Source: Compostimonas suwonensis
GTDB lineage: Bacteria; Actinomycetota; Actinomycetes; Actinomycetales; Microbacteriaceae
Direction of reading: 5' to 3'
Assembly: GCF_002797855.1 (NCBI RefSeq)
Contig: NZ_PGFB01000003.1
Coordinates: 248,001-312,000 of the forward strand
DNA: 64,000 nt
The first letter of the stretch is position 1. The number at the start of each line of letters is the position of its first letter. The notes under the pieces are model-generated. The model was not told where the DNA came from and ran no database searches. It was given only the letters and a program-made list of their open reading frames with translations. Positions 5,236 to 27,295 of the stretch are shown piece by piece. The position numbers and the translations under genes are program-made.

Positions 5236-5289
5236 GGTTGCAGCGTGTCTGTCTGGTTGCAGCGTGTCTGTCTGGTTACAGCGTTTCCG
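5236..5289. repeat. 19-bp tandem repeat running into the protease stop codon
   Basis: GGTTGCAGCGTGTCTGTCT occurs at 5236-5254 and 5255-5273, and a third, diverged copy (from 5274) contains the TAA stop and last codons of the metalloprotease gene. The 3' end of the gene appears to have been copied outward. Confidence 0.8.
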
Positions 5290-7771
5290 CGGAACGCCGT
5301 CTGCGACGCTGGACGGTGATCGTCGCGAGGATACCGCCGAGCAGGAGGAGGCCGAGGCCGCCCACCAGCGCGATCGGGAGCTCGGCGCCGACTCCGGTGC
5401 TCGCGAGAGCGCCGGAGCTCCCGTCATCCGATCCTGCGTCGGATCCCGTGTCGGCCGGCACCGTGGTGCTCGGATCGGTCGGCGCGTCGGTGGGCTCGTC
5501 GGTCGGCGCGTCGGTGGGCTCACCGGTGGGCTCGTCGGTCGGCGTGTCCGTGGGCACATCCGTCGGCTCGTCTGTCGGGACGGCCGCGGCCGTGATGACG
5601 CAGTCGACGGACTGGGTCTTGGTCGGGTCGTTCTCCGAGGTGGCCGTCACCGTCAGCGTGGCCGTCGACGCGGTGACGGCCCCGTGCTCGAGGTACACGG
5701 GAACCGTGATCGTCTCACCCGTCTCCGCGGTCACGATGCTGCTCGGCGTGGACGGCGTCCAGTTCCGGTCGTCGACGCTCGTCGTGATGCGGTAGATGTC
5801 GCTGTTCGCCAGCGCGTTGGTGACAGCACCGCCCGTGTTCGTGAGCGGGACCGTGCACTGCGCGATGTCGTCATCCGTCGTACCGGTGACGGTTCCTTCG
5901 CCGAGCGCGAGCCCTCGCACCTGGGGGCCGGGGTTGTCGAGCGAACGCACCGCCACGTCGTAGCTCAGCAGGCCGTCGTCGTCGCGCTTCATGTCGACGA
6001 CGTAGAACTGCAGACGGTTGACCTCGTCGACGTACTCGTACTCCGAGCCCGAGTCGTTGCCGGCGTGGAACAGGCCGTCGTTGAGCTGACGTTGGTCGCC
6101 CCGCGTGATCATGATCGGCGTGCCGTCCGGGCGCACGTAGTCGACGGTGTCGATGTTCTCGGGGTTGGCGTCGATCGCCCAGATGAACGGGTTGCTGTCG
6201 GCGTTCTTCGTCTTCGAGATCAGGACGCCGTGGTCGGGAAGGAACGAGTCCGTGCCCATGCGGTCCAGCACCTCGAGGGTGTAGTTGTCGAAGTTGCCGC
6301 CGTCGCAGTCCCATTGGGCCGCGCGGGTGCAGCTGCCGTTGGAGTCGTCGCCGCTGAGCGGCCGTCCGCGGCTGTCGACCAGCACGTTGCCGAGCGCATC
6401 CTTGGGGCGCTCGAAGGCGATGTTGATGCCCGTCGGCTTTCCGGGGAGCATCACGGCGCGTGCGGTCAGGTTCGTCACGATCGACCCCTGGGCGTTGAGG
6501 CTCTCCTGCGTGAGCGTGATCAGGTTGCCCGTCGCCTCACCGGTCTGCGCGTCTTGCGTGTAGAGATCGATCAGGTCGAGGTTGATGCGGTTGCGCAGCG
6601 CCACGCCCGCGGGCTGCGAGCCGCCGGCGACCGAGGGGACGCCCCAGCGCTGGTGGGTGCCACCCGGGCCGCCGAACTGACCGCGGGCGAGCACGTCGAA
6701 CGGCCCGCTCGTGTCGCGCAGAGGCCCGCCGTCGGCCGCTTCCGTGCCGAAGGGGTTTCCGTAGTTGTCGGAGATGCCGAGGATGTGGCTGAACTCGTGC
6801 GCGAAGGTTCCCATACCCGAGGACTCGGCCTGCGTCGAGTTGCCGGCGTTCCCCCGCGACGGGAAGTTGGCGTTCGGCCAGTGGTTGATGGCGGCCGACC
6901 ACGAGGTCCACGGGATGTACCGGGTCTTGGCGGCATTGGCCATCGGCGCCCCGTTCTGGTCGAGTGCGACGCCGTTCTCGTCACGCGGCGGGCCGAAGGT
7001 GTCGGTCACGTCCTCCGGGTTCTCGAACAGCATGCGGCCGAACTCCTCCCACGTCGTGGACTCGTCGTGGCCGGCGGTGATGTAGAAGACCTCGTCGAAC
7101 TCGGTGAGGGGGTTGGGCACCCCGATGTCGGCGGACCAGAGGCTGAGCGCGTCACGACGGATGTCTTTGTTGCAGCTCTCGCCCTGGGGGCAGAACGCCG
7201 CGTTGGGCTTGTTGAAGCTGTCGTTGAGGCCGTACTCCTCGATCTTGCCCGGGAGCTCGTAGGGGCCGAAGGCCTCCATCTGAACGCTCAGACGCCCGCC
7301 GGTCTGCTCCATCCAGTACTCGTTGATGGTGCGGCCGTGGTTCAGCTCGTTCGGAGTGTTCAGCAGATCGAGGTAGAACTGCGGCACGTCGTCGCGAGGG
7401 ATGTTGTGCGCGAGCCCCGAGGGGTTGCCGAAGGTGTGGGAGCCCTGGTCTTGCGTGACGAGGAACGGCTGATTGGTGAAGTCGAGCAGCACGACCGCGC
7501 CGTGGAACGGACGCTCCGAGCCCTCGGTGTCGTTGGCCCAGTCGGTGTTGGGAACCGGGGTGTAGTCATCCCAGGTCATGTCGTCCATGTTCTTCCAGTC
7601 CTGAGGATCGACAGGATCGAGAACGCCGGGATCGATGGGTGTCGGATCCGCGGGCGCCGCCATAGCGACACTGCTGGAGGCGGCAGCCACAGCAAAGATG
7701 CCCGCCGCCGCCGCGATGGCGACTCCTGCTCGCCAGTGGCGCGCACGCCGTTGGCTTGGCTTCGATGTCAA
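5276..7771 (-). CDS. Secreted M6-type (immune inhibitor A-like) metalloprotease with wall anchor
   Basis: The product of about 831 residues has a Sec signal peptide (RHWRAGVAIAAAAGIFAVAA, cleavage near AMA-AP), an M6-like peptidase domain with the zinc motif HEFSHILGISD at about residue 325 (HExxH plus a third ligand), beta-rich C-terminal domains with a CARDB/DUF11-like stretch (AQCTVPLTNTGGAVTN), a PTDEPTD-type repeat linker, and a C-terminal LASTG - hydrophobic helix - RRRRR tail within the last 43 residues. LAxTG motifs are substrates of class E sortases in actinobacteria, so wall attachment is inferred. TTG at 7771 is preferred over ATG at 7789 because the strong ribosome site AGAGGAGAA lies between them. 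It is expected to degrade extracellular protein; the substrate is unknown. Confidence 0.88.
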   Translation of the reverse strand: MTSKPSQRRARHWRAGVAIAAAAGIFAVAAASSSVAMAAPADPTPIDPGVLDPVDPQDWKNMDDMTWDDYTPVPNTDWANDTEGSERPFHGAVVLLDFTNQPFLVTQDQGSHTFGNPSGLAHNIPRDDVPQFYLDLLNTPNELNHGRTINEYWMEQTGGRLSVQMEAFGPYELPGKIEEYGLNDSFNKPNAAFCPQGESCNKDIRRDALSLWSADIGVPNPLTEFDEVFYITAGHDESTTWEEFGRMLFENPEDVTDTFGPPRDENGVALDQNGAPMANAAKTRYIPWTSWSAAINHWPNANFPSRGNAGNSTQAESSGMGTFAHEFSHILGISDNYGNPFGTEAADGGPLRDTSGPFDVLARGQFGGPGGTHQRWGVPSVAGGSQPAGVALRNRINLDLIDLYTQDAQTGEATGNLITLTQESLNAQGSIVTNLTARAVMLPGKPTGINIAFERPKDALGNVLVDSRGRPLSGDDSNGSCTRAAQWDCDGGNFDNYTLEVLDRMGTDSFLPDHGVLISKTKNADSNPFIWAIDANPENIDTVDYVRPDGTPIMITRGDQRQLNDGLFHAGNDSGSEYEYVDEVNRLQFYVVDMKRDDDGLLSYDVAVRSLDNPGPQVRGLALGEGTVTGTTDDDIAQCTVPLTNTGGAVTNALANSDIYRITTSVDDRNWTPSTPSSIVTAETGETITVPVYLEHGAVTASTATLTVTATSENDPTKTQSVDCVITAAAVPTDEPTDVPTDTPTDEPTGEPTDAPTDEPTDAPTDPSTTVPADTGSDAGSDDGSSGALASTGVGAELPIALVGGLGLLLLGGILATITVQRRRRRSAETL

Positions 7772-7788
7772 GATTTCTCCTCTGCTCA

Positions 7789-7824
7789 TTCACTTCTCTG
7801 ATCTGGTTCACTTCACTGATCTGG
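7789..7824. repeat. Two 18-bp direct repeats upstream of the protease gene
   Basis: TTCACTTCTCTGATCTGG (7789-7806) is repeated at 7807-7824 with one mismatch, directly upstream of the protease ribosome site. It could be a regulator-binding pair in the 5' leader or a simple duplication. Confidence 0.7.
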
Positions 7825-8082: not shown

Positions 8083-11000
8083 GTGTGGCGCCTGGATAGA
8101 AGAAATGACGACGACGAGCTCCTCTCCGAGCTCGATCAGCAGAACGACCCCGCGTGGCAGAACACGACGTCTCCCCATGCCCTGAGCCTGGGTGACCCGA
8201 GCCTCGTCGCCGGCAACATCGCGGAGCCGGCCTGGGCGCGCTGGCGCTCCGAGCTCGCGGCGGTCGGCGGCAATTCGCCGCTCCTGCACTTCGTCGACAC
8301 CACCGCGACCCGCATCGAGCTCTCGACGACCCACCCGGGCGGGCTGCCCCAGTTCATCACGGGCCACACCGTGCTGCTGTCGAGCCTCATCCGCGACGAG
8401 GTCGCCCTGCGCAACGCCCGCCTCGCGGCCGGCAACATCACCTCGAAGGGCATCGAGCTGCGCTCGGTGCGCGGCATCGAGGCGGTGCATCTCGCGATCG
8501 GCCTCGCCCAGTGGAAGCACGGCGAAGGGCGCGAGGAGCGCGAGTACACGGCGCCGGTTCTGCTGCGCCCCGTCGCGATCCGCCGCTACGGCCGCGACTA
8601 CGAGCTCAAGCTCAAGGGCAGGCCGTTCCTCAATCCCGCGCTCGCGGCGGCCCTGCACGAGCAGTTCCAGATCACGCTGGATGCCGAAGCCTTCGTCTCG
8701 CTCGCCCTCTCCAACGGCGCCTTCAAGCCGCAGCCCGTCATCGACCGCCTGCGCGGACTCACCTCGCACCTCGCCTGGTTCAACGTGCAGCCGCGTCTCG
8801 TCGTCTCGTCGTTCGCCGACGTCTCGCACGACATGCTCGCGGATGCCGGTGACCTCGAGCATCCCGTTCTCGACGCCCTCGCCGGCAACCCGCGTTCGCG
8901 CCGCCGCATCGAGGAGTCCTACGAGCCGGTCGAATGGGTCAGTCAGGACGCCCGCCCCCCGGTGACCGACAACCTGCTGCTCGACGCCGACAGCGAGCAG
9001 GAGAACGTCGTCGCGCAGGTCGCCGCCGGCAACTCCCTCGTCGTCAAGTCACTGCCCGGCACGGGCGGAACCCAGACGATCGTCAACGCCATCGGAGCCC
9101 TCACCTCGCAGCACAAGCGCGTGCTCGTCGTGAGCGCCCGCCGCTCGAGCCTCGACGGCATCGCCCACCGCCTGAGCCAGGTCGGCCTGCCCGGCCTCGC
9201 GGTCACGACGCGCACCCTGCGCCGCGACCTCGTGCACTCGATCGCGCGCAACGAGAAGGCCACGCAGCCGAAGGTCGCCGAGGTCGACGACGCCCTCGTG
9301 CGCCTGCGCAAGGTGCTGCTCGACTACCGTGCGGCGCTCACCCACCGCGACCCGGCGACCGGGGTCTCGGTGCTCGACGCGCTCGGAGAGCTCGCCCGCC
9401 TCGCCCTGCTCCCCACCCCTCCCGCGACGACGGCGCGCCTGCAACGGCACAGCGTCGAGGCTCTCGCGCACGACAGGGCCGGAGCCGCGCGCAACCTCGT
9501 GCAGGCGGCATCGCTGGGCGAGTTCCGCTACGGTCCGGGCGATTCGCCCTGGTACGGGGCATCCTTCAGCTCGACGGCGGAGGCGAGCGCGACCCACGAG
9601 CTCGCCAAGAAGCTCAACCAGATCGAGCTGCCCCGCCTGCTCGAGCGCGCCTACGACCTCATCGGCCAGACCCGGATGCGTCCCTTCGAGACCATCACGG
9701 AGCTCGGCATCTACCTGCGCCTGCTCCTCGACATCCGCGAGACGCTGGACCGGTTCTCGCCGTCGGTGTTCGACCGCTCGCTCACCGAGCTCATCGCCGC
9801 GACATCCTCTCGCCGTGACACACCCGACATGTCGTCGGTCAACCGCCGCCGCCTGCGCAAGCACGCCATGGAGTACCTGCGCCCGGGTGTGCACGTGAGC
9901 GATCTGAACGCGAGCCTGCGGCGCATCCAGCAGCAGCGCACGCTCTGGCAGCGCTACGTCGTCGCCGGGGCGACGCCCGAGGTGCCCATCGGCATCGCCG
10001 ACGTGCAGGTCGCGTTCCAGCGGGTCTTCGAAGACCTCGCGACGCTCGACGCCCCGCTCGGCATCCAGGGAACCCCCGACCAGCTCGCCAACCAGCCGAT
10101 CACGGAGTTGGTGAGCAAGGTGGCCGGCCTGGCCGCCGAGTCCGAGGTGCTCGCCAACCTGCAGGAGCGCGTCGCCCTGCTCGCACGTCTGCGCGAGCTC
10201 GAGCTCGACCCGCTGCTGGCCGACCTGTCGTCGCGGCACGTTCCGCCGGCGGATGTCGCGGCGGAGCTCGAGCTCGCCTGGTGGCAGTCCGTGCTCGAGC
10301 ACGCGCTCGCGACCGACAAGGCGCTGCTCAACGCCAACACGGGTGTGCTCGACCGGCTCGAGGCCGACTTCCGTCTCGTCGACGAGGCGCACGCCTCGGC
10401 CGCGGGGCAGCTGCTCGCCTGGCTGCTCGCGGAGACCTGGAAGGTGGGCGTCATCGACTGGCCGCAGGAGGCATCCGAGCTGCGCCGACTGCTCAAGGCC
10501 GACAGCGCGCTCACAACAGACAAAGCGACGGCCGATGCCCTGCACGAGGCCGCGCCGCATCTCTTCCGAACCCTCGCGCCCGTGTGGCTCGCCTCGCCGT
10601 ACGAGGTGCCCGCGATCTCGAGCGACATCCAGTTCGACGCCGTCTTCCTCGTCGACGCGGGGGCGACGACCCTCGCCGAGAACGTGTCGGCGATCCGTCG
10701 TGCCAAGCAGGTCGTCGCGTTCGGCGACCCGGTGACCCAGACCCCCTCGGCCTTCGAGGTCGGCATCGTCGACGGTTCGGGCGCCGGCGGCGCAGGTGCG
10801 GGCAGTGCAGGCAGTGCGGGCAGTGCGGGCAAGGATGCCGCGGCCCGCGAGCCGCTCGACGTCGACGCCCTGCACGCCGACTCCGCGCTCGGCCGTCTGG
10901 GCGAGCTGCTGCCCACCCTCACTCTCACCCGCAGCTATCGCGCGGGCGGCGAGGACCTCGCCGAGCTCGTCAACCGCCGCTTCTACGCGGGCAAGATCGA

Positions 11001-11919
11001 CTCCCTCCCGTGGGCCGGGAGCTTCCTCGGGCACGGCAGCATCACGCTCAACTACGTGCTCGGCGGGCGTGGTATGCCCGACGAGAGCAGCGGCGCCGTC
11101 GAGAGCGTCGACGCCGAGGTCGACAAGGTCGTGGGCCTGGTCATGGACCACGCGATCAACCGGCCGCGCGAGTCGCTCATGGTCATCACCGCGAGCGCCC
11201 GGCACGCTGTGCGCGTGCAGCAGGCGGTGCTCGAGGCGTTTGCGAAGCGCTCCGACCTCAGCGACTTCATCCTCAAAGACCGGGCCGAGCCGTTCACCGT
11301 CGCGACCCTCGAGCAGTCGGTCGCGCAGAGTCGCGACCGGGTGATCTTCTCGATCGGCTACGGCCGCACACCGCACGGCCGGATGCTCTCCAACTTCGGC
11401 GCCCTCGCCGAGCCGGGCGGCGACCGCCTGCTCGCCGTGGGCATGACGCGCGCGCGTCGCTCGATGGACATCGTGTCGTGCTTCCGCCCCGAAGACATCG
11501 ACGACGACCGCAAGAGGCACGGCCTGCTCGCGCTCGCCAACGTGCTCGCCGAGACCGAGGCGCGGGCCGCGATCGACCCGATGCCCGACGACAGCGAGCC
11601 CATGCTGCTCGACCTGGCCGCCCGCCTCGAACGGATGGGCATGATCGTGTCGCTCGGCTACCGCGAGAAACTGCAGCTCGTCGCGACGGTCGCCGGCCGG
11701 GCGGTGGTCGTCGAGACGGACTCCGCCGTGGGCCGCGCGAGCCTGCGCGAGTCGTTGCGTCTGCGCCCCGAGGTGCTGCGGCGACTCGGCTGGCACTACA
11801 TCCGTGTGCACAGCTTCGAGCTGTTCAGCAATCCGGATGCCGTGGCACAGCGTGTCGCGACGGTGCTGGGCGTTCGCGACCAGCTCGCCGAGACGGCCCC
11901 GCTGCTCCCGCTGCGCTGA
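8083..11919 (+). CDS. SF1 helicase-like protein with degenerate Walker motifs and REase-like C-terminus
   Basis: The 1278-residue protein has the architecture of UPF1/DNA2-like superfamily-1 helicases (AAA_11/AAA_12 type) fused to a restriction-endonuclease-fold C-terminal domain. The Walker A position reads LPGTGGTQTIVN (about residues 323-334), where the family has GTGKTQTIVN: the invariant Lys is Gly. The Walker B position reads VFLVDAGATT (about 854-863), where DE is expected: the catalytic Glu is Ala. Motif III (FGDPVTQTP) and motif VI (GMTRARRSMDIV, about 1120-1131) are kept. The last 100 residues (VVETDS, then LRRLGWHYIRVHSFELFSNP) resemble the DUF559/MTES_1575 endonuclease-like family. 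A Gly/Ser/Ala insert sits near 905-920. Neighbours are housekeeping genes and the frame is intact, so it is probably a conserved non-hydrolysing nucleic-acid-binding protein rather than a decaying gene. The role is unknown. Confidence 0.75.
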   Translation: MWRLDRRNDDDELLSELDQQNDPAWQNTTSPHALSLGDPSLVAGNIAEPAWARWRSELAAVGGNSPLLHFVDTTATRIELSTTHPGGLPQFITGHTVLLSSLIRDEVALRNARLAAGNITSKGIELRSVRGIEAVHLAIGLAQWKHGEGREEREYTAPVLLRPVAIRRYGRDYELKLKGRPFLNPALAAALHEQFQITLDAEAFVSLALSNGAFKPQPVIDRLRGLTSHLAWFNVQPRLVVSSFADVSHDMLADAGDLEHPVLDALAGNPRSRRRIEESYEPVEWVSQDARPPVTDNLLLDADSEQENVVAQVAAGNSLVVKSLPGTGGTQTIVNAIGALTSQHKRVLVVSARRSSLDGIAHRLSQVGLPGLAVTTRTLRRDLVHSIARNEKATQPKVAEVDDALVRLRKVLLDYRAALTHRDPATGVSVLDALGELARLALLPTPPATTARLQRHSVEALAHDRAGAARNLVQAASLGEFRYGPGDSPWYGASFSSTAEASATHELAKKLNQIELPRLLERAYDLIGQTRMRPFETITELGIYLRLLLDIRETLDRFSPSVFDRSLTELIAATSSRRDTPDMSSVNRRRLRKHAMEYLRPGVHVSDLNASLRRIQQQRTLWQRYVVAGATPEVPIGIADVQVAFQRVFEDLATLDAPLGIQGTPDQLANQPITELVSKVAGLAAESEVLANLQERVALLARLRELELDPLLADLSSRHVPPADVAAELELAWWQSVLEHALATDKALLNANTGVLDRLEADFRLVDEAHASAAGQLLAWLLAETWKVGVIDWPQEASELRRLLKADSALTTDKATADALHEAAPHLFRTLAPVWLASPYEVPAISSDIQFDAVFLVDAGATTLAENVSAIRRAKQVVAFGDPVTQTPSAFEVGIVDGSGAGGAGAGSAGSAGSAGKDAAAREPLDVDALHADSALGRLGELLPTLTLTRSYRAGGEDLAELVNRRFYAGKIDSLPWAGSFLGHGSITLNYVLGGRGMPDESSGAVESVDAEVDKVVGLVMDHAINRPRESLMVITASARHAVRVQQAVLEAFAKRSDLSDFILKDRAEPFTVATLEQSVAQSRDRVIFSIGYGRTPHGRMLSNFGALAEPGGDRLLAVGMTRARRSMDIVSCFRPEDIDDDRKRHGLLALANVLAETEARAAIDPMPDDSEPMLLDLAARLERMGMIVSLGYREKLQLVATVAGRAVVVETDSAVGRASLRESLRLRPEVLRRLGWHYIRVHSFELFSNPDAVAQRVATVLGVRDQLAETAPLLPLR

Positions 11920-11981: not shown

Positions 11982-12068
11982 CACTCAAAACGACGGACTT
12001 TCCGGCCCGAACGGCAGTTTTCGCGCCTGAAACAGCGGTATTGGCCGGAAAGTCCGTCGTTTTGAGTG
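11982..12068. repeat. Palindromic repeat element, family A (copy 1)
   Basis: A perfect 26-bp inverted repeat (11982-12007 pairs with 12043-12068; outer end CACTCAAAACGACGGAC) encloses a 35-nt spacer. The same outer motif (ACTCAnAACGACGGA ... TCCGTCGTTnTG) and a related spacer (GCGCCTGAAACAGCGGTAT versus GCGCCGAAACGGCCGTTAT) recur at 52796-52880, so this is a dispersed element and not a random hairpin. It could act as a terminator for the upstream gene. Confidence 0.85.
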
Positions 12069-12612: not shown

Positions 12613-13047
12613 TCAGTCGGCGTGCTTGTGCTCGCGCGGTGCGGCATCCTTCGCCAGCAGGTCGCGGATCTCGATGAGCAGGTCGAGCTCGGTCGGGGGA
12701 GTGTCGGCGGGCTCCGTCTCGCCCGCCTTGCGGCGCTGCTCGGCTCGGCGCTTGAAATGGTTGATCGGCATGACGAAGACGAAGTACACGACCACGGCCA
12801 CGATGAGGAACTGGATGATCGCGCCGATCACCGAGCCGTAGAGGATGACGGCATCCGGGCCGGGGCCGGGGATCGTCCAGGAGAGGCCGTCGAGGCTGTC
12901 GGCCTGGAAGATCGCCCCGATGAGCGGGTTGAAGATGCCGGTGACGATCGCATTGACGACCGCGGTGAAGGCGGCGCCGATGACGACCGCGACCGCGAGG
13001 TCGATGACGTTGCCTCGAACGATGAACTCTTTGAAACCCTGGATCAT
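12613..13047 (-). CDS. mscL: Large-conductance mechanosensitive channel MscL
   Basis: The 144-residue protein matches MscL throughout: the N-terminal amphipathic helix and TM1 (MIQGFKEFIVRGNVIDLAV, then VVIGAAFTAVVNAIV), a periplasmic-type loop, TM2 (GSVIGAIIQFLIVAVVVYFVFV) and a charged C-terminal helix (TELDLLIEIRDLL). It forms a homopentameric membrane pore that opens under membrane tension and releases solutes on hypo-osmotic shock. Length is normal (130-150). An AAGGAAG ribosome site precedes the ATG. The FmdB-type gene, the cyclo-ligase gene and divergent galU follow upstream, an arrangement that looks typical for this family of bacteria. Confidence 0.96.
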   Translation of the reverse strand: MIQGFKEFIVRGNVIDLAVAVVIGAAFTAVVNAIVTGIFNPLIGAIFQADSLDGLSWTIPGPGPDAVILYGSVIGAIIQFLIVAVVVYFVFVMPINHFKRRAEQRRKAGETEPADTPPTELDLLIEIRDLLAKDAAPREHKHAD

Positions 13048-13122: not shown

Positions 13123-13545
13123 TCAGCTGGACGAGGATGCCGCGCCCGAACTCGAACTCCCGCTCGAACCAGAACCCGAGCCAGAACCAGAGCCTGAGCT
13201 CGAACCAGAGCCCGACCCCGAGCTCGACGCCGCGGCCGGGGTGGCGCTCGGCGCCGGAGTGCTCGGCTTGTCGCTCGACGGCTTCTCACCGCTCGACGGC
13301 TTCTCGCCCGAGCCGCCGGACGCGCCCGAGCCGCTCGAGCCGGAGCTCCGGGATCCGCTGCGCGAGTCGGTGCGCGAGTCGGTGCGGTAGAAGCCCGAGC
13401 CGTTGAAGGTGACGCCGATGGTGTTGAAGACCTTGCGCAGGCGACCACCGCATACGGGGCACTCGGTGAGCGAGGCATCCGAGAAGGCCTGCTGGATGTC
13501 GAACGCGTTGCCGCACTCTGTGCACTTGTACGAATAGGTTGGCAT
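13123..13545 (-). CDS. FmdB-family zinc ribbon protein
   Basis: The first 50 residues are a classic FmdB/CxxC_CXXC_SSSS regulatory-type zinc ribbon: MPTYSYKCTECGNAFD and TECPVCGGRLRKVF provide four Cys ligands. The rest (about residues 58-140) is a Ser/Gly/Pro low-complexity tail with GEKPSS and SGSGSGS repeats ending in a Ser run. ATG 13545 is chosen over GTG 13551 because GGAG lies just upstream and the conserved family start is MPTY. The family is named for a formamidase-associated putative regulator; the actual function is not established. Confidence 0.88.
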   Translation of the reverse strand: MPTYSYKCTECGNAFDIQQAFSDASLTECPVCGGRLRKVFNTIGVTFNGSGFYRTDSRTDSRSGSRSSGSSGSGASGGSGEKPSSGEKPSSDKPSTPAPSATPAAASSSGSGSGSSSGSGSGSGSGSSGSSSSGAASSSS

Positions 13546-13645
13546 GGTCACTCCGAGAGCTGGGTCGTGGGACTGGGTTGTCGTGGGACTGGGTTGTCAT
13601 GGGGCAGAGGCGGCGAACGGGGCGCTGCGGGCCGCTGCGGGACTG

Positions 13646-14224
13646 CTAGAACGTGACGATTCTCGTGGGTGTCACGACGCCGTCGACGGGCTGGTCGTGC
13701 ACCTCGCGGGGCACCGAGTCCACCAGTTCGCCGTCGAAGATGACGGCGTACACCGGAGGACATTTTTCCATCGAACCGAGGGTCTTGTCGAAATAGCCCC
13801 GGCCCCAGCCCATCCGCAGGCCGCTCTCGTCGATCGCCGCGGCCGGCACGATGATGAGGTCGACGTCGTTGATCGCGATCGGCCCGAGTGTGACCCCGGA
13901 GACCTCGGGCACGCCGAAGAGCCCCTCGACCTCGATGGCGTCCTCGCCGACCGTCCAGTCGAGCAGGCCGTCTTCTCGGGTCACGGGAAACAGGATGCGG
14001 ATGCCCTGGTCGGCGGCCCACCGCAGGAACGGCCGGGTGTTCGGCTCGTTCTGCGCGGAGAGGTAGCACGAGATCGATCGTGCGGAGAGGTCGAGGGTGA
14101 CCGCTTGGAGGTTCTGGGTGATGCCGACATCCGCCGCCTCGCGTTCGGAGGAGGTCATGTTCTGGCGTCGCTCTCGCAACTCGGCTCGGAGCGCGCGCTT
14201 CTGATGCGCGACGTCATGTGGCAT
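13646..14224 (-). CDS. 5-formyltetrahydrofolate cyclo-ligase
   Basis: The product of about 192 residues catalyses ATP-dependent conversion of 5-formyl-THF to 5,10-methenyl-THF in cytoplasmic folate metabolism. Diagnostic segments are KRALRAELRERRQ (N-terminal substrate/ATP helix), YLSAQNEPNTRPFL, LIIVPAAAIDESGLRMGWG and RGYFDKTL (the ATP-binding G-x-G-x-G-Y-x-D loop). Start 14224 (MPHDVAHQ) is preferred over 14233 because a TAGAAT -10 box lies 7 nt before it and would overlap the upstream ATG. It lies divergent from galU. Confidence 0.9.
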   Translation of the reverse strand: MPHDVAHQKRALRAELRERRQNMTSSEREAADVGITQNLQAVTLDLSARSISCYLSAQNEPNTRPFLRWAADQGIRILFPVTREDGLLDWTVGEDAIEVEGLFGVPEVSGVTLGPIAINDVDLIIVPAAAIDESGLRMGWGRGYFDKTLGSMEKCPPVYAVIFDGELVDSVPREVHDQPVDGVVTPTRIVTF

Positions 14225-14237: not shown

Positions 14238-14353
14238 GGCGCGCGGCCGGAGGGTGTTGTCAGGCAGCGGCCGAGCGGGGTGCGAGGACGACGTGAGGAT
14301 CGCAAAAGTACCGGTCGTGAAACCCTTTCGTAACGCAAGAAACGATGCGGACC

Positions 14354-14359
14354 GATAAT
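14354..14359 (+). promoter_or_regulatory. -10 box of galU
   Basis: GATAAT lies 9 nt before ATG 14369. The mRNA would have a leader of 0-3 nt. No clear TTGACA-like -35 is visible. Confidence 0.55.
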
Positions 14360-14368
14360 GTAGCGACC

Positions 14369-15265
14369 ATGGCATTCACCATCACCAAGGCGGTCATCCC
14401 TGCAGCTGGACTCGGCACCCGATTCCTGCCGGCAACCAAAGCTCTTCCCAAAGAGATGCTGCCCGTCGTCGACAAACCGGCCATCCAGTACGTCGTGGAA
14501 GAGGCCGTGAACGCGGGGCTCGAAGACGTGCTGATGATCGTGGGCCGCAACAAGAACGCTCTCGCGAACCACTTCGACCGGGTCACCGAGCTCGAGGACA
14601 CGCTCAGCAAGAAGGGCGACGTCGACCGCCTGCACCGGGTCACCTACTCGAGCGACCTGGCCGACGTGCACTTCGTGCGCCAGGGCGACCCGAAGGGTCT
14701 CGGCCACGCCGTGCTGCGCTCCAAGAAGCACGTGGGGCACGAGCCGTTCGCCGTGCTGCTCGGCGACGACCTCATCGACGCCCGCGACCCGCTGCTGTCG
14801 AAGATGCTCGACGAGCAGCAGAAGCGCAACACGACCGTCATCGCCCTGCTCGAGGTCGACCCCTCGCAGATCCACCTCTACGGCGCCGCCGCGGTCGAGC
14901 CGACCGATGACCCGGATGTCGTCAAGGTGATCGAGCTCGTCGAGAAGCCCGATCCCGCCGAGGCGCCGTCGAACCTCGCGATCATCGGCCGCTACGTGCT
15001 GCGCCCCGAGGTCTTCGGCATCCTCGAGAACACGGCGCCCGGGCGCGGTGGCGAGATCCAGCTGACCGACGCCCTGCAGACCATGGCGCACGACGTCGAG
15101 GGCACGGGCGGCGTCTACGGGGTCGTCTTCCGCGGCCGTCGCTACGACACCGGCGACCGTGCCGACTACATCAAGGCCGTCATCCAGCTGGCGTGCGACC
15201 GCGACGACCTCGGCGCGGAGCTCAAGCCGTGGCTGAAGTCGTTCGTGGCGGGCTTCGAGGACTAG
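14369..15265 (+). CDS. galU: UTP-glucose-1-phosphate uridylyltransferase GalU
   Basis: The 298-residue enzyme forms UDP-glucose from UTP and glucose 1-phosphate for cell-envelope glycans. The nucleotide-binding signature GLGTRFLPATKALPKEMLPV, the VDKPAIQYVVEEAV segment, the substrate loop (LGDDLIDA) and the C-terminal RGRRYDTGDRADYIKAV motif are all present. The start MAFTITKAVIPAAG fits the family; the upstream in-frame ATG at 14345 lies before the -10 box and is discarded. A GNAT acetyltransferase follows 18 nt downstream, probably co-transcribed. Confidence 0.96.
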   Translation: MAFTITKAVIPAAGLGTRFLPATKALPKEMLPVVDKPAIQYVVEEAVNAGLEDVLMIVGRNKNALANHFDRVTELEDTLSKKGDVDRLHRVTYSSDLADVHFVRQGDPKGLGHAVLRSKKHVGHEPFAVLLGDDLIDARDPLLSKMLDEQQKRNTTVIALLEVDPSQIHLYGAAAVEPTDDPDVVKVIELVEKPDPAEAPSNLAIIGRYVLRPEVFGILENTAPGRGGEIQLTDALQTMAHDVEGTGGVYGVVFRGRRYDTGDRADYIKAVIQLACDRDDLGAELKPWLKSFVAGFED

Positions 15266-23176: not shown

Positions 23177-26100
23177 TCAGCGTGTGCGTCGGCGGCCTGC
23201 GAGAGTCAGGGCGAGGACGAGGACGCCGCCGGCGAGCAGCATCAGGCTGACCGTGATGAGCAATCCGGAGTCGCTGCCCGTCTGCGGCAGACCGCTCCCC
23301 GCCGCGGGAGACGCGGGAGAAGCCGGAGACGGTGCGGGCGCAGCGGTGGGCTGCTCGGTCGGTTCGTCCGTGGGCTCGTCTGTCGGCTGCTCGGTGGGCT
23401 CGTCCGTCGGATCGACGGGTGGCACCACGACCGCCACGATCGTCAGCGGCGCGGTCGACGTGTTGTTCTCGACCTCCACGTCGACGGTGGTGTCGGTGTC
23501 GGTGTCGGCGAAGGCGACCACCGCGGTCGCCGGGTCGGTGCCCGCCGCCGTTGTCGTGCCGGTGAGCGTGACAGGCGGCAGCGAGGCATCCGGCAACACA
23601 ATGTCGGATGTCGTGCAGCCGGCCGTCTGATCGGACACCTCGCAGCTCCAGCCGTCACCCTCGCCGCCGTCGAACTGCACGCCGGCCGGCAGCGTGATGG
23701 TCAGCGTCGCACCCGTCGTCGGTGAGATGCCGTGGTTGGAGACCAGCGCTGTGAACCGCACATCGTCGCCCACCGTCACCGAGGACGGCGCCGCGGTGAG
23801 TGTGACGGCCAGATCGTCTGCGCGCTCGACGATGCCGGCGTCGATGCCGCCTCGGTTCGTGTTCACGCCGTCGTCGAGGCTCACGACGAGCTCGGAGCTC
23901 AGCCCGGTCAGCCAATCGACGACCGAGCCGGTCTCGTCGTCGGGCTGGGCGGGGACGGTGAGGGCCTGGCCCGTTCCGGGGTCGACGCCGATCCGGTAGG
24001 AGCCGGCCGGCAGGTCGAGGAACACGTAGTCGCCGTCGGCGCCGGTCACGACGGTGGTGACGGGGTCGGATGCCGATGCGCCGCCGTAGAGGGCGACCGT
24101 CACCCCTTCGACTCCGGCTTCCTCGGAATCCTCGATACCGTCGGTGTCGGCGTCGAGCCAGACCCGGCCGCTGAGCGAACCGCGCTTCTCGGCGAACAGA
24201 TAGCCGGTCGCCGCCGTGCCGCCGGGCAGTTCGATCTGCGTGATCGAGTCGGGCGCTGTGAGGACGCCGCCGGCGGTGCCGAGGGTCTCGGAACCGTCGG
24301 CGAACCCGCTCGGCTGGGTCTCGGTGATCGTGTAGCTACCCGCGAGCAGTCCGGTGAATGCGTGGCCGCCGTCGGCGCTCGTCGTGGCTGCGATGTTCAC
24401 GTCTGTGCCGAGGACGTCGGTTCCGCTCAGGGTGACCGAGACGCCCTCGAGGCCGGGATCGGCTGCGCCGCGCGTGCCATCGCCGTCGGTGTCGTGGAAG
24501 ATGGCCAGGGAGATGCTTCCCGTGGTCTCGCCGAACAGATAGCCGGTGCCCGAGGTGCCGGCGGGCAGAGTGATCGCGGTGAACGAATCGCTTCCGACGG
24601 CGCCGCCGCTCGTGCCGAGGGTCTCCGTTCCGTCGCCGTATGCCGTGGGCTGAGTCTCGGTGATCGTGTAGGTGCCGGCCAGCAGCTGGGGGAACTCGTA
24701 GTCGCCGTTCGCCGACGTGGTGGTCGCAACGGGATCGAGCGCCCCCGCGGCATCCGTGCCTGTCAGGGTGACGGTGACGCCGCCGATCCCCGGTTCGCCG
24801 GCGTCACGGGCGCCGCTGCCGTCGAGGTCGTCGTAGACCGCACCGGACAGCGCGCCCGTGGTCTCGCCGAACAGGTAGCCGGTGGCCGTTGTGCGGTCTG
24901 GGAGGACGATCTGTGTGATGGTGTCGGGCGCCGCCGATCCACCGGCCGTGCCCGCCGTGTCGATGCCGTCGGCGTAGCCGGCGGGCTGGGTCTCGACGAG
25001 CTCGTACGTGCCCGAGCGCAGAGCGGAGAAGAGGTAGGCTCCGGTCGCGGAGGTCGTCGCGGTGAGAGAGACGGCGTTGTCCTCGGAGTCCACTCCGCTG
25101 AGTGCGACGACGACATCTGCGATTCCGGGCTCGCCCGCATCGCGGGTGCCGTCGGCGTCGAGGTCGTTGTAGACCTCGCCCGAGAGGCTGGAGGTCGGCC
25201 GCTCGGCGAAGAGGTTCCCGGTGCTGCTCTGACCGGGTTCCAGCGTGACCTCGATGACGTCGACGCCGGCCCCCGCAACCGCATTGGTGCCGGGTGTGCT
25301 GATGCCGGTGTCGAAGGCGGAGGGCTGGGCCTCCGCAACCGTGTAGGTGCCGCCGGGCACACCGGTGAAGACGTAGTCGCCCGTGGAGTTCGTCGAGGTG
25401 GTCAGGCTTATGGAGGAGCCGGTCGTCGGGAAGCCGGAGAGGGCGACGCTCACATCGCCGATGCCGGTCTCGCCGGGATCGACGACGCCGTCGTCGTCGC
25501 GGTCGGCGAAGACCCGCCCGCTCACCGTGCCGACGGTCGGGACCTCCACCGTCGAGGTGTCGTCCACGGTGCCGCCGACGTGGTCGGCCGTCACGGTCGC
25601 GGTGTTCGAGCCGCTTGTGATCGGGGCGAGAGCCGTGCAGTTGTAGACGATCTCCTCGTCGACGTCGAGGGTGGGCCTGGAGCTCGCGCACGACGGCACG
25701 GTGGGATCGCTGATCGTCACGTTGCTCAGTGGGACGTCGCCGGTGTTGTCGACGTGGATGGCGAAGGTGATCGTCTGACCGGAGGTGTAGGTGGGCTGAT
25801 CCGCGGTCGCGGTGATCTCGACGGCCGGGTGGATGACATCGATGCCGATCGTGGTGCTGTCTCGGAGGTCACCGCCGGAGGCGCTCAGGCCCGTGACGGT
25901 GTTCGTCACCGTCGTGTCATCGGCCGGCGCCTGCACGGTGCAGGTGTAGCTGATGGACTGATTGGCGGACAGGTCTCCGATCGTCCTGTCGCACTCGTCG
26001 ATAGGGCTGTCCACCACGACGTCGGTGGCCGGGGAGCCGGGGGAGGCCACCCTGATCGTGTAGACGATCGGTGCGCCGGCCAGGTACGGGCCCACGGGGC

Positions 26101-27295
26101 TCGCCGTGCTGGTCAGCTCCAGCGACGCGATCGGCACCGACAGCGCGAGACCGGTGGCGAGGAAGGTGTCACCGCTGGTCGCGAAAGACGCAGAGGCCGA
26201 GGTAGCTCCTGCCGGGATCGGAGCGTCGATCGCCCTGGCGTCGACGCTCATATTGTTGACCACGGCGGGATTCACCGAGAAGTCGGTGCGGGAGGTGAAG
26301 AAGTTGGTCGTCGTCCCCGACGCGGCGATGGCTGTTCCGTTGATCTGGAACTGATCGCCGCTGATGTTGAGATCGCCCTCGTAGCCCGTGACCCCGACCC
26401 GGGCGCCGGGTGCTATCGCGCGGAAGCCCGAGACGTTCACCGTGGTCGCAGGGTCCACCGATGACTGTCGCACGTGTCCGTCGTAGAGGAACACGCCTTT
26501 TTTGATCGGTGCATTGACGTCGGGGCCGTCGTAGCTGTATACCACGGACAGTGACCAGCCGGAATGGCATCCGAAGCCCTGCGGAGACCAGACGTTGCCG
26601 AGTGTGAGGGTGAGCGGGGAGCCCGTGGCGACGCCGGCGAAACGGGAGGTCACGTCGGCGTACGCGGCGTAGAACTGCGGTTGCGAGGCCGGGACGGTGG
26701 CCAATGCGTCGCGGGAGATCACCTGCGGCGTGATCGCGACCGGACTGCCGTCGCCGACGGTCAATCGCGTCGAGGTGCTCTCCGGGGTGCCGGCCGGCAG
26801 AACGGCCGTTCCGGCGCCGGCCAGGAATTGACGGGTGTTGCATCCGGGCTGTGCGGAGACCGTCCCGTCTGCGAGCCGTATGGTTCCGGTGTCGCCGCTC
26901 CAGCCCAGGCGGGCGAAGGCGACCGTCGCGCCGGCCGGGATGGTGATCGACGCCTGACTGGAGTTGTAGGTGGCGGCGTTGGAGTCGACATCCGCCCAGC
27001 GCATGTAATAGGAGTCGTTGAGGCCCGACGACGAGGCGTACGTGCCGGCTTGGGCCTGGCCGCAGCTCGCGATCGGCTCCCCGAACGGGTCGCTCGGGCT
27101 CGTGGGCCCGGGGCAGGAGGAGTTGCCGTTGCCGGTGAGGATGAAATCCCCGTACACCTCTGCGTTGTAGTTCAGGGTGAAAGGTCGTATCACGGCGGCC
27201 TCCGCGGGCTGAGCCGAGACGAGCACGGTCGTCGTCGTTCCGGTGAGGACCACGATCATCGCGCTCAGGAGTCGTGTCCAGCGTTTCGCGTTCAC
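23177..27295 (-). CDS. Large cell-wall-anchored adhesin with SdrD-type B repeats
   Basis: The 1372-residue surface protein has a Sec signal peptide (residues about 1-34), a large N-terminal domain (about 35-400), two DUF11-type Ig-like repeats (about 400-590; TITFAIHVDNTGDVPLSNVT), five SdrD/Cna-B-like modules starting near residues 592, 703, 815, 927 and 1041 (each with a D-x-D-x-D-G calcium-type loop and GExGIxxVxVxLSG), another DUF11 domain (about 1150-1270), a PTDEPTEQ repeat linker and a C-terminal LPQTG - hydrophobic helix - RRRTR sorting signal at about 1335. Such proteins are calcium-stiffened stalks on the cell surface. The start is GTG 27295 with AGAGGA upstream. The GC-rich DUF11 modules are typical of actinobacteria. 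Confidence 0.88.
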   Translation of the reverse strand: MNAKRWTRLLSAMIVVLTGTTTTVLVSAQPAEAAVIRPFTLNYNAEVYGDFILTGNGNSSCPGPTSPSDPFGEPIASCGQAQAGTYASSSGLNDSYYMRWADVDSNAATYNSSQASITIPAGATVAFARLGWSGDTGTIRLADGTVSAQPGCNTRQFLAGAGTAVLPAGTPESTSTRLTVGDGSPVAITPQVISRDALATVPASQPQFYAAYADVTSRFAGVATGSPLTLTLGNVWSPQGFGCHSGWSLSVVYSYDGPDVNAPIKKGVFLYDGHVRQSSVDPATTVNVSGFRAIAPGARVGVTGYEGDLNISGDQFQINGTAIAASGTTTNFFTSRTDFSVNPAVVNNMSVDARAIDAPIPAGATSASASFATSGDTFLATGLALSVPIASLELTSTASPVGPYLAGAPIVYTIRVASPGSPATDVVVDSPIDECDRTIGDLSANQSISYTCTVQAPADDTTVTNTVTGLSASGGDLRDSTTIGIDVIHPAVEITATADQPTYTSGQTITFAIHVDNTGDVPLSNVTISDPTVPSCASSRPTLDVDEEIVYNCTALAPITSGSNTATVTADHVGGTVDDTSTVEVPTVGTVSGRVFADRDDDGVVDPGETGIGDVSVALSGFPTTGSSISLTTSTNSTGDYVFTGVPGGTYTVAEAQPSAFDTGISTPGTNAVAGAGVDVIEVTLEPGQSSTGNLFAERPTSSLSGEVYNDLDADGTRDAGEPGIADVVVALSGVDSEDNAVSLTATTSATGAYLFSALRSGTYELVETQPAGYADGIDTAGTAGGSAAPDTITQIVLPDRTTATGYLFGETTGALSGAVYDDLDGSGARDAGEPGIGGVTVTLTGTDAAGALDPVATTTSANGDYEFPQLLAGTYTITETQPTAYGDGTETLGTSGGAVGSDSFTAITLPAGTSGTGYLFGETTGSISLAIFHDTDGDGTRGAADPGLEGVSVTLSGTDVLGTDVNIAATTSADGGHAFTGLLAGSYTITETQPSGFADGSETLGTAGGVLTAPDSITQIELPGGTAATGYLFAEKRGSLSGRVWLDADTDGIEDSEEAGVEGVTVALYGGASASDPVTTVVTGADGDYVFLDLPAGSYRIGVDPGTGQALTVPAQPDDETGSVVDWLTGLSSELVVSLDDGVNTNRGGIDAGIVERADDLAVTLTAAPSSVTVGDDVRFTALVSNHGISPTTGATLTITLPAGVQFDGGEGDGWSCEVSDQTAGCTTSDIVLPDASLPPVTLTGTTTAAGTDPATAVVAFADTDTDTTVDVEVENNTSTAPLTIVAVVVPPVDPTDEPTEQPTDEPTDEPTEQPTAAPAPSPASPASPAAGSGLPQTGSDSGLLITVSLMLLAGGVLVLALTLAGRRRTR

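Follow-up and report, generated by a model that had tools for sequence, protein, structure and literature searches.

A conserved, apparently inactivated helicase-nuclease of the Actinomycetales with a putative non-motor role on nucleic acids

We analysed a 64,000-nucleotide stretch of the Compostimonas suwonensis genome (contig NZ_PGFB01000003.1, positions 248,001 to 312,000; hereafter the window) and the gene at its positions 8083-11919, which encodes a protein of the superfamily 1 (SF1) helicase type. Inactivation of this protein is strongly supported by the residues found at its catalytic positions. Judged by its sequence, it is a pseudohelicase, combining descent from an active helicase with a conserved loss of catalytic residues. 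We propose that it is a vertically inherited core pseudo-helicase of the Actinomycetales (as delimited in GTDB) that acts as a non-motor clamp or scaffold on nucleic acid, a reading to which we assign a probability of about 0.55. A preliminary description of the window had suggested a conserved pseudo-ATPase; sequence comparisons support that suggestion and extend it to most of the order and to the nuclease active site, which appears to be lost as well.

Motif state and predicted fold

The open reading frame (ORF), previously described as undisturbed, is indeed intact, and the GC contents of its three codon positions (0.73, 0.47 and 0.93) follow the pattern of a real gene. The features of the gene and its product are as follows.

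8083..11919, plus strand: pseudo-helicase gene, 1278 aa; DUF4011, SF1B core with a long helical insert, MTES_1575-type nuclease fold
8470..8652, plus strand: DUF4011 match, aa 130-190, above the Pfam cut-off
8983..9003, plus strand: Q motif DADSEQE, Gln306 retained (Gln in 85/85 Microbacteriaceae)
9052..9078, plus strand: broken Walker A motif LPGTGGTQT, aa 324-332; Lys replaced by Gly329, Thr330 retained
9520..10362, plus strand: insert of mainly helical structure separating motif I from motif II (about aa 480-760); boundaries approximate
10633..10665, plus strand: broken Walker B motif FDAVFLVDAGA; Asp replaced by Val857 and Glu by Asp858, according to gapless alignment with canonical orthologues and the strand end in the model
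10720..10746, plus strand: altered motif III FGDPVTQTP, with Thr885 where the conserved Gln belongs (GDERQLPP aligned over GDPVTQTP)
10924..10947, plus strand: motif IV LTRSYRAG, Arg953 retained (Arg in 85/85)
11329..11400, plus strand: motif V region SRDRVIFSIGYGRTPHGRMLSNFG, among the best-kept parts across all inactive lineages
11440..11466, plus strand: motif VI GMTRARRSM, arginines retained (85/85 Microbacteriaceae)
11590..11868, plus strand: MTES_1575-type nuclease-fold domain; boundaries approximate

The codon at the position of the Walker A Lys is GGA (9067-9069), as the preliminary description had it. That description was also right in calling Walker B broken, but the Glu-to-Ala replacement that it gave was misassigned. 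The sequence FDVVVFDEASQ of the active orthologues aligns over FDAVFLVDAGA without a gap from FD (aa 851-852) to motif III; therefore, the Walker B Asp corresponds to Val857 and the catalytic Glu to Asp858. In the AlphaFold model the Walker B strand ends at Val857, as this register predicts. Motif III, which had been regarded as intact, has lost its conserved Gln, and motif VI, described in the same way, does carry TRARR. No second P-loop or DE box was found elsewhere in the window protein, where the true P-loop might have been located. Among the relatives, the only strings resembling a relocated P-loop were of the AQFITGKT type, at the start of DUF4011 in some of them; this candidate was rejected, as its Lys is not conserved and is His in the window protein.

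In the nuclease domain, the first catalytic Asp is replaced by Gln1198 (11674-11676), and the ETD sequence (aa 1211-1213) is retained. The C-terminus, earlier described as MTES_1575-like, matches this Pfam family weakly in the window protein (24.5 bits against a gathering cut-off of 38.2), and its orthologues L041 (53 bits), L044 (49) and L049 (48.8) pass the cut-off (L and G labels denote sequences and genomes of our sample, and f labels families). Its matches to AAA_11 and AAA_12 are likewise below threshold. The insert contains the conserved blocks TLDRFSPSVFDR, LRPG and ELELAWWQSVLE.

The AlphaFold model of the window protein (aa 66-1265) had a predicted local distance difference test score (pLDDT) of 90.2 and a predicted template modelling score (pTM) of 0.80. 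Among the chains compared, it was closest to those of Dna2 (Z 20.6), Ighmbp2 (20.6) and Upf1 (20.1), with a root-mean-square deviation of about 4 Å over 480-500 residues, and the window protein also gave profile matches to these chains. The f4 orthologue L049, in which almost no motif is left, yielded a model with pLDDT 86.9, pTM 0.74 and a Z score of 18.2 to Ighmbp2; because canonical relatives were included in its alignment, this model indicates that the sequence is compatible with the fold but does not prove it independently. The models suggest that the fold outlives the chemistry.

Conservation, selection and origin

A match to the family was found in 59 of 59 relatives searched, in all 300 Microbacteriaceae genomes (76 genera) and in all 199 Actinomycetales genomes searched. 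The match in one of the 300, G074, is an 88-aa C-terminal piece only, in an assembly of 290 contigs. A search of genome contigs also returned a copy from Diaminobutyricibacter tongyongensis with 74% identity and a match in an Actinomycetota metagenome-assembled genome. Beyond the order, our sample contained full-length copies only in family f34 and in single genomes of f25 and f37. Two genomes of 0.8-0.9 Mb contain intact ORFs of 1205 and 1221 aa with neither Walker motif left. The presence of a copy in nearly every sampled genome of the order, even the tiny ones, suggests that the dead enzyme probably has another job.

The residue columns were read for 57 Microbacteriaceae genera (85 sequences). 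None of the 85 has the Lys of Walker A, the Glu of Walker B, the Gln of motif III or the first Asp of the nuclease site, so that the substitutions, as the preliminary description had anticipated, are common to the orthologues. The position of the Lys is occupied by G, A, S, Y, L, R, I or V, and that of the motif III Gln by Thr or Ile in every copy; 84 of the 85 have an acidic residue at the Walker B Glu position. The Q-motif Gln, the Walker A Thr, the motif IV Arg and the motif VI Arg were present in 84-85 copies, and the nuclease E-x-D was kept in most. Close relatives carrying canonical GKT and DE motifs, which would have spoken against that suggestion, were not found among these copies; canonical copies occurred only in other families of the order or class. 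In families f3, f4, f9, f10 and f14 the gene persists without most of the pocket residues.

The ratio of nonsynonymous to synonymous divergence (dN/dS), a check proposed in the preliminary description, indicated purifying selection: pairwise values were 0.013-0.16 among eight congeneric species and 0.036-0.145 in a second genus. Across 32 codons around the broken P-loop, the eight congeners had no amino-acid difference, as opposed to a synonymous difference of 0.38. Thus, the altered loop is selected as it is. Since the losses are shared by 85 of 85 copies and the P-loop is invariant among the congeners, they go beyond chance.

Constraint has shifted away from motifs I, II and IV and now lies on motif V, DUF4011 and the insert. 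The conservation percentiles of motifs I, II and IV, which are at the 99th-100th in canonical copies, fall to the 82nd, 87th and 28th, respectively, in the inactive clade. Top conservation there is kept by the motif V region (RD.VI.S.G.G.TPHGR), by HP.GL.QL..G...LS.L.R near the N-terminus and by TLD.F.P.VF.R, R..L.RPG and EL.LAWW.SVLE; insert blocks at about aa 554-602 and 728-739 are also among the best conserved. On the basis of this conservation, these segments are the candidate working surfaces.

The genes downstream of the pseudo-helicase gene, given below as context, serve as syntenic markers.

12613..13047, minus strand: mscL, marker in inactive and active orthologues
13126..13546, minus strand: FmdB-like zinc-ribbon gene; approximate coordinates
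13646..14224, minus strand: 5-formyltetrahydrofolate cyclo-ligase gene
14345..15265, plus strand: galU-type nucleotidyltransferase gene

The mscL and galU genes thus lie near the gene, as first described. GPPGTGK(S/T), DEAS and the nuclease residues are carried by f5 and f18 (6/7 copies) and by one f37 genome. In f5 and f18, as in the window and most inactive copies, the gene is followed by a convergent mscL; in several families the 5-formyltetrahydrofolate cyclo-ligase gene, galU and a GCN5-related N-acetyltransferase (GNAT) gene come next, and the FmdB-like gene recurs at the locus in eight families. This shared, mscL-flanked synteny identifies the canonical and inactive genes as orthologues in place, and the retention of GKS, DEAS and the nuclease residues in the f5 and f18 copies indicates that activity was lost in place. 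As mscL and the folate gene are convergent to the pseudo-helicase gene, we draw no functional link from them.

In a tree of the sampled copies built with the motif columns removed, the main inactive clade (support 100/99) stood beside the canonical clade, and the best tree had four changes of state. Trees with fewer changes, in which either the copies of f34 and f25 or L089 were constrained to group with the main inactive clade, were not rejected by the approximately unbiased (AU) test (p = 0.151 and 0.066, respectively). A single ancient loss accounts for most families, and further losses are probable. Every core gene with a canonical ATPase retains its nuclease site; 8 ATPase-dead copies keep that site and 75 do not. 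The one exception to the pattern is a long paralogue, L060, which has canonical GKS and DEAS. Because the nuclease site is lost only in ATPase-dead core copies, the ATPase seems to have been lost first.

Two further sets of copies were observed. L089 (genome G335, f18), on a long branch in a family that is otherwise canonical, carries Val at the Lys position of Walker A and Leu at the Asp position of Walker B, and may represent a recent, separate loss. L082-L088 come from outside the order; in every f34 copy read and in the single f25 copy, the Lys of Walker A is replaced by Arg, the same change as in Deinococcus radiodurans PriA, and Walker B is altered.

As to the rest of the window, an inverted-repeat-like stretch, AAACGACGGACTTTCCGGCC ... 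GGCCGGAAAGTCCGTCGTTTT (about 11987-12006 and 12043-12063), lies at 12000-12060, 3′ of the pseudo-helicase gene, and could be either a terminator or a mobile repeat of short length. A divergently transcribed gene at 5276-7789 (minus strand) encodes a metallopeptidase of the M6 type (immune inhibitor A-like) that has a PT-repeat stretch and a C-terminus (LASTG, transmembrane segment, Arg) that resembles a cell-wall sorting signal. A secreted protein of 1372 aa with many SdrD_B, SpaA and DUF11 domains, probably a surface adhesin-like protein, is encoded at 23177-27295 (minus strand).

Proposed role and its alternatives

The sequences show the following history. The ancestor was an SF1B helicase of the Upf1/Dna2 type joined to a nuclease domain of the MTES_1575 type, and its apparently active form persists at the mscL-flanked locus of two sister families. 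The ATPase residues (the Lys, the Asp-Glu pair and the motif III Gln) seem to have been lost first; the catalytic Asp of the nuclease followed later and, in some lineages, the Glu too. Purifying selection has preserved the fold, as predicted, along with the helical insert and the region of motif V. The resulting motorless clamp or scaffold may grip nucleic acid, or a partner bound to nucleic acid, in the cleft that the insert forms with the two RecA domains; the nuclease fold would presumably be used for binding only. The Microbacteriaceae proteins, which still have the Q-motif Gln, the Walker A Thr and both Arg fingers, may bind a nucleotide that, without being hydrolysed, determines whether they are open or closed; in families such as f3, f4, f9, f10 and f14 the protein would work independently of nucleotide. 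As the process served, housekeeping metabolism of DNA or RNA is more likely than a strain-specific defence against phages, and this is the weakest step of the proposal.

A more far-reaching version, which we advance tentatively and hold to be somewhat less probable than its converse, is that a helicase-nuclease that has lost both activities is a core, non-enzymatic factor of nucleic-acid metabolism on which the whole order depends. Derived in place from an active enzyme, possibly of the defence type, it would have been inactivated more than once and would survive even in 0.8 Mb genomes, as a nucleotide-gated clamp in some families and a nucleotide-free scaffold in others.

Three considerations weigh against a clamp or scaffold of this kind: the loss of catalytic residues is not proof of inactivity; the neighbouring genes are convergent or unrelated and point to no function; and the profile relatives of the protein, ProA, Hhe and PDC-S37, are anti-phage proteins. 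That these are its best profile relatives suits a defence sensor, in which the dead helicase and nuclease modules would detect incoming foreign nucleic acid and either alert another effector or block on its behalf. For bacteriophage exclusion (BREX) helicases, the inactive nuclease domains at the C-terminus have been proposed to be non-enzymatic sensors (PMC12839542), which makes this role the main rival. We nevertheless consider it unlikely, as the gene is universal, mostly present in one copy at a fixed locus and kept in genomes of 0.8-0.9 Mb, whereas defence genes are usually patchy; moreover, no defence genes were recognised among the conserved neighbours.

A purely structural scaffold, binding neither nucleotide nor nucleic acid and presenting protein-binding surfaces such as the insert blocks, would agree with the high conservation of those blocks and with the families that keep the gene after losing most of the pocket. 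The near invariance of the pocket residues in Microbacteriaceae makes it distinctly improbable, as does the fact that the best-kept motif is the motif V region, which in SF1 helicases is on the nucleic-acid side.

Equally improbable in our estimate is a cryptic enzyme that hydrolyses nucleoside triphosphates or cuts nucleic acid through an unusual site, for example with Asp858 in place of the Glu and a residue from a partner in place of the Lys. The conservation of most pocket residues and of an acidic residue at the Glu position, together with the strong selection on the loop, would fit such an enzyme. The drift at the Lys position, however, counts against a substitute catalytic role there; the Mg-binding Asp and the motif III Gln are gone too, other families lose the pocket yet keep the gene and the predicted fold, and in PriA the change of Lys to Arg by itself abolishes the ATPase (PMC4504706). 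A decaying pseudogene in this genome or family, for which nothing speaks beyond the missing residues, was rejected and has a negligible probability in view of the dN/dS values far below 1, the invariance of the altered motif and the intact ORFs in essentially all relatives. An active paralogue as an obligate partner was likewise rejected, as many genomes contain a single family member.

Comparison with known systems

The canonical f5 and f18 orthologues (for example L035, L038 and L040) share with the window protein the architecture, the fold family and the position as a core gene followed by convergent mscL, but they keep GPPGTGKS, DEAS, the motif III Gln and the nuclease D and E residues. 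DUF4011, an SF1 helicase and a Vsr/MTES_1575-type nuclease fold are also found in ProA, Hhe, PDC-S37 and MTES_1575 of Microbacterium testaceum (PMC3710099). These proteins differ in being longer and having extra domains, and the long paralogue L060 is canonical in its GKS/DEAS motifs. The PADLOC models of PDC-S37 and Hhe are matched by the window protein, which scores well below the NCBIfam equivalog cut-offs of ProA (297.6 of 1500 bits) and Hhe (138.3 of 2000). Upf1, Ighmbp2 and Dna2 (SF1B) have the same helicase core fold; they are known active ATPases and have no DUF4011, whereas the window protein has no Lys, Asp-Glu pair or motif III Gln and contains the long insert.

A catalytically inactive nuclease fold at the C-terminus is also a feature of BREX-type helicases, which belong to a defence system and whose helicase part is not described as dead (PMC12839542). 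Utp25 is described as another conserved pseudohelicase, working in an RNA machine; it differs in being a eukaryotic ribosome-assembly factor (PMC9539457).

In the open-access literature, we found no published description of this family; pseudohelicases as a class are already known, as exemplified by D. radiodurans PriA. The obvious annotation (AAA ATPase, helicase) would be misleading for a core gene of a large bacterial order. One syntenic locus offers a natural series of an apparently active enzyme, a protein that keeps the pocket without the catalytic residues and a motif-free protein, which makes the role of a motorless helicase testable by comparison of orthologues. If the origin in a defence-type enzyme is true, a helicase-nuclease turned into a housekeeping protein after losing catalysis.

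By analogy, the closest experimental precedent is D. radiodurans PriA. PriA is a superfamily 2 (SF2) protein, and no kinship is claimed. D. radiodurans PriA likewise is a conserved bacterial helicase with a lineage-wide Walker loss that works without an ATPase: it has neither ATPase nor helicase activity, binds DNA and appears to contact DnaB (PMC4504706). It differs from the window protein in that its role, in replication restart, is known, the loss is confined to the replacement of Lys by Arg, and there is no nuclease domain (PMC4504706).

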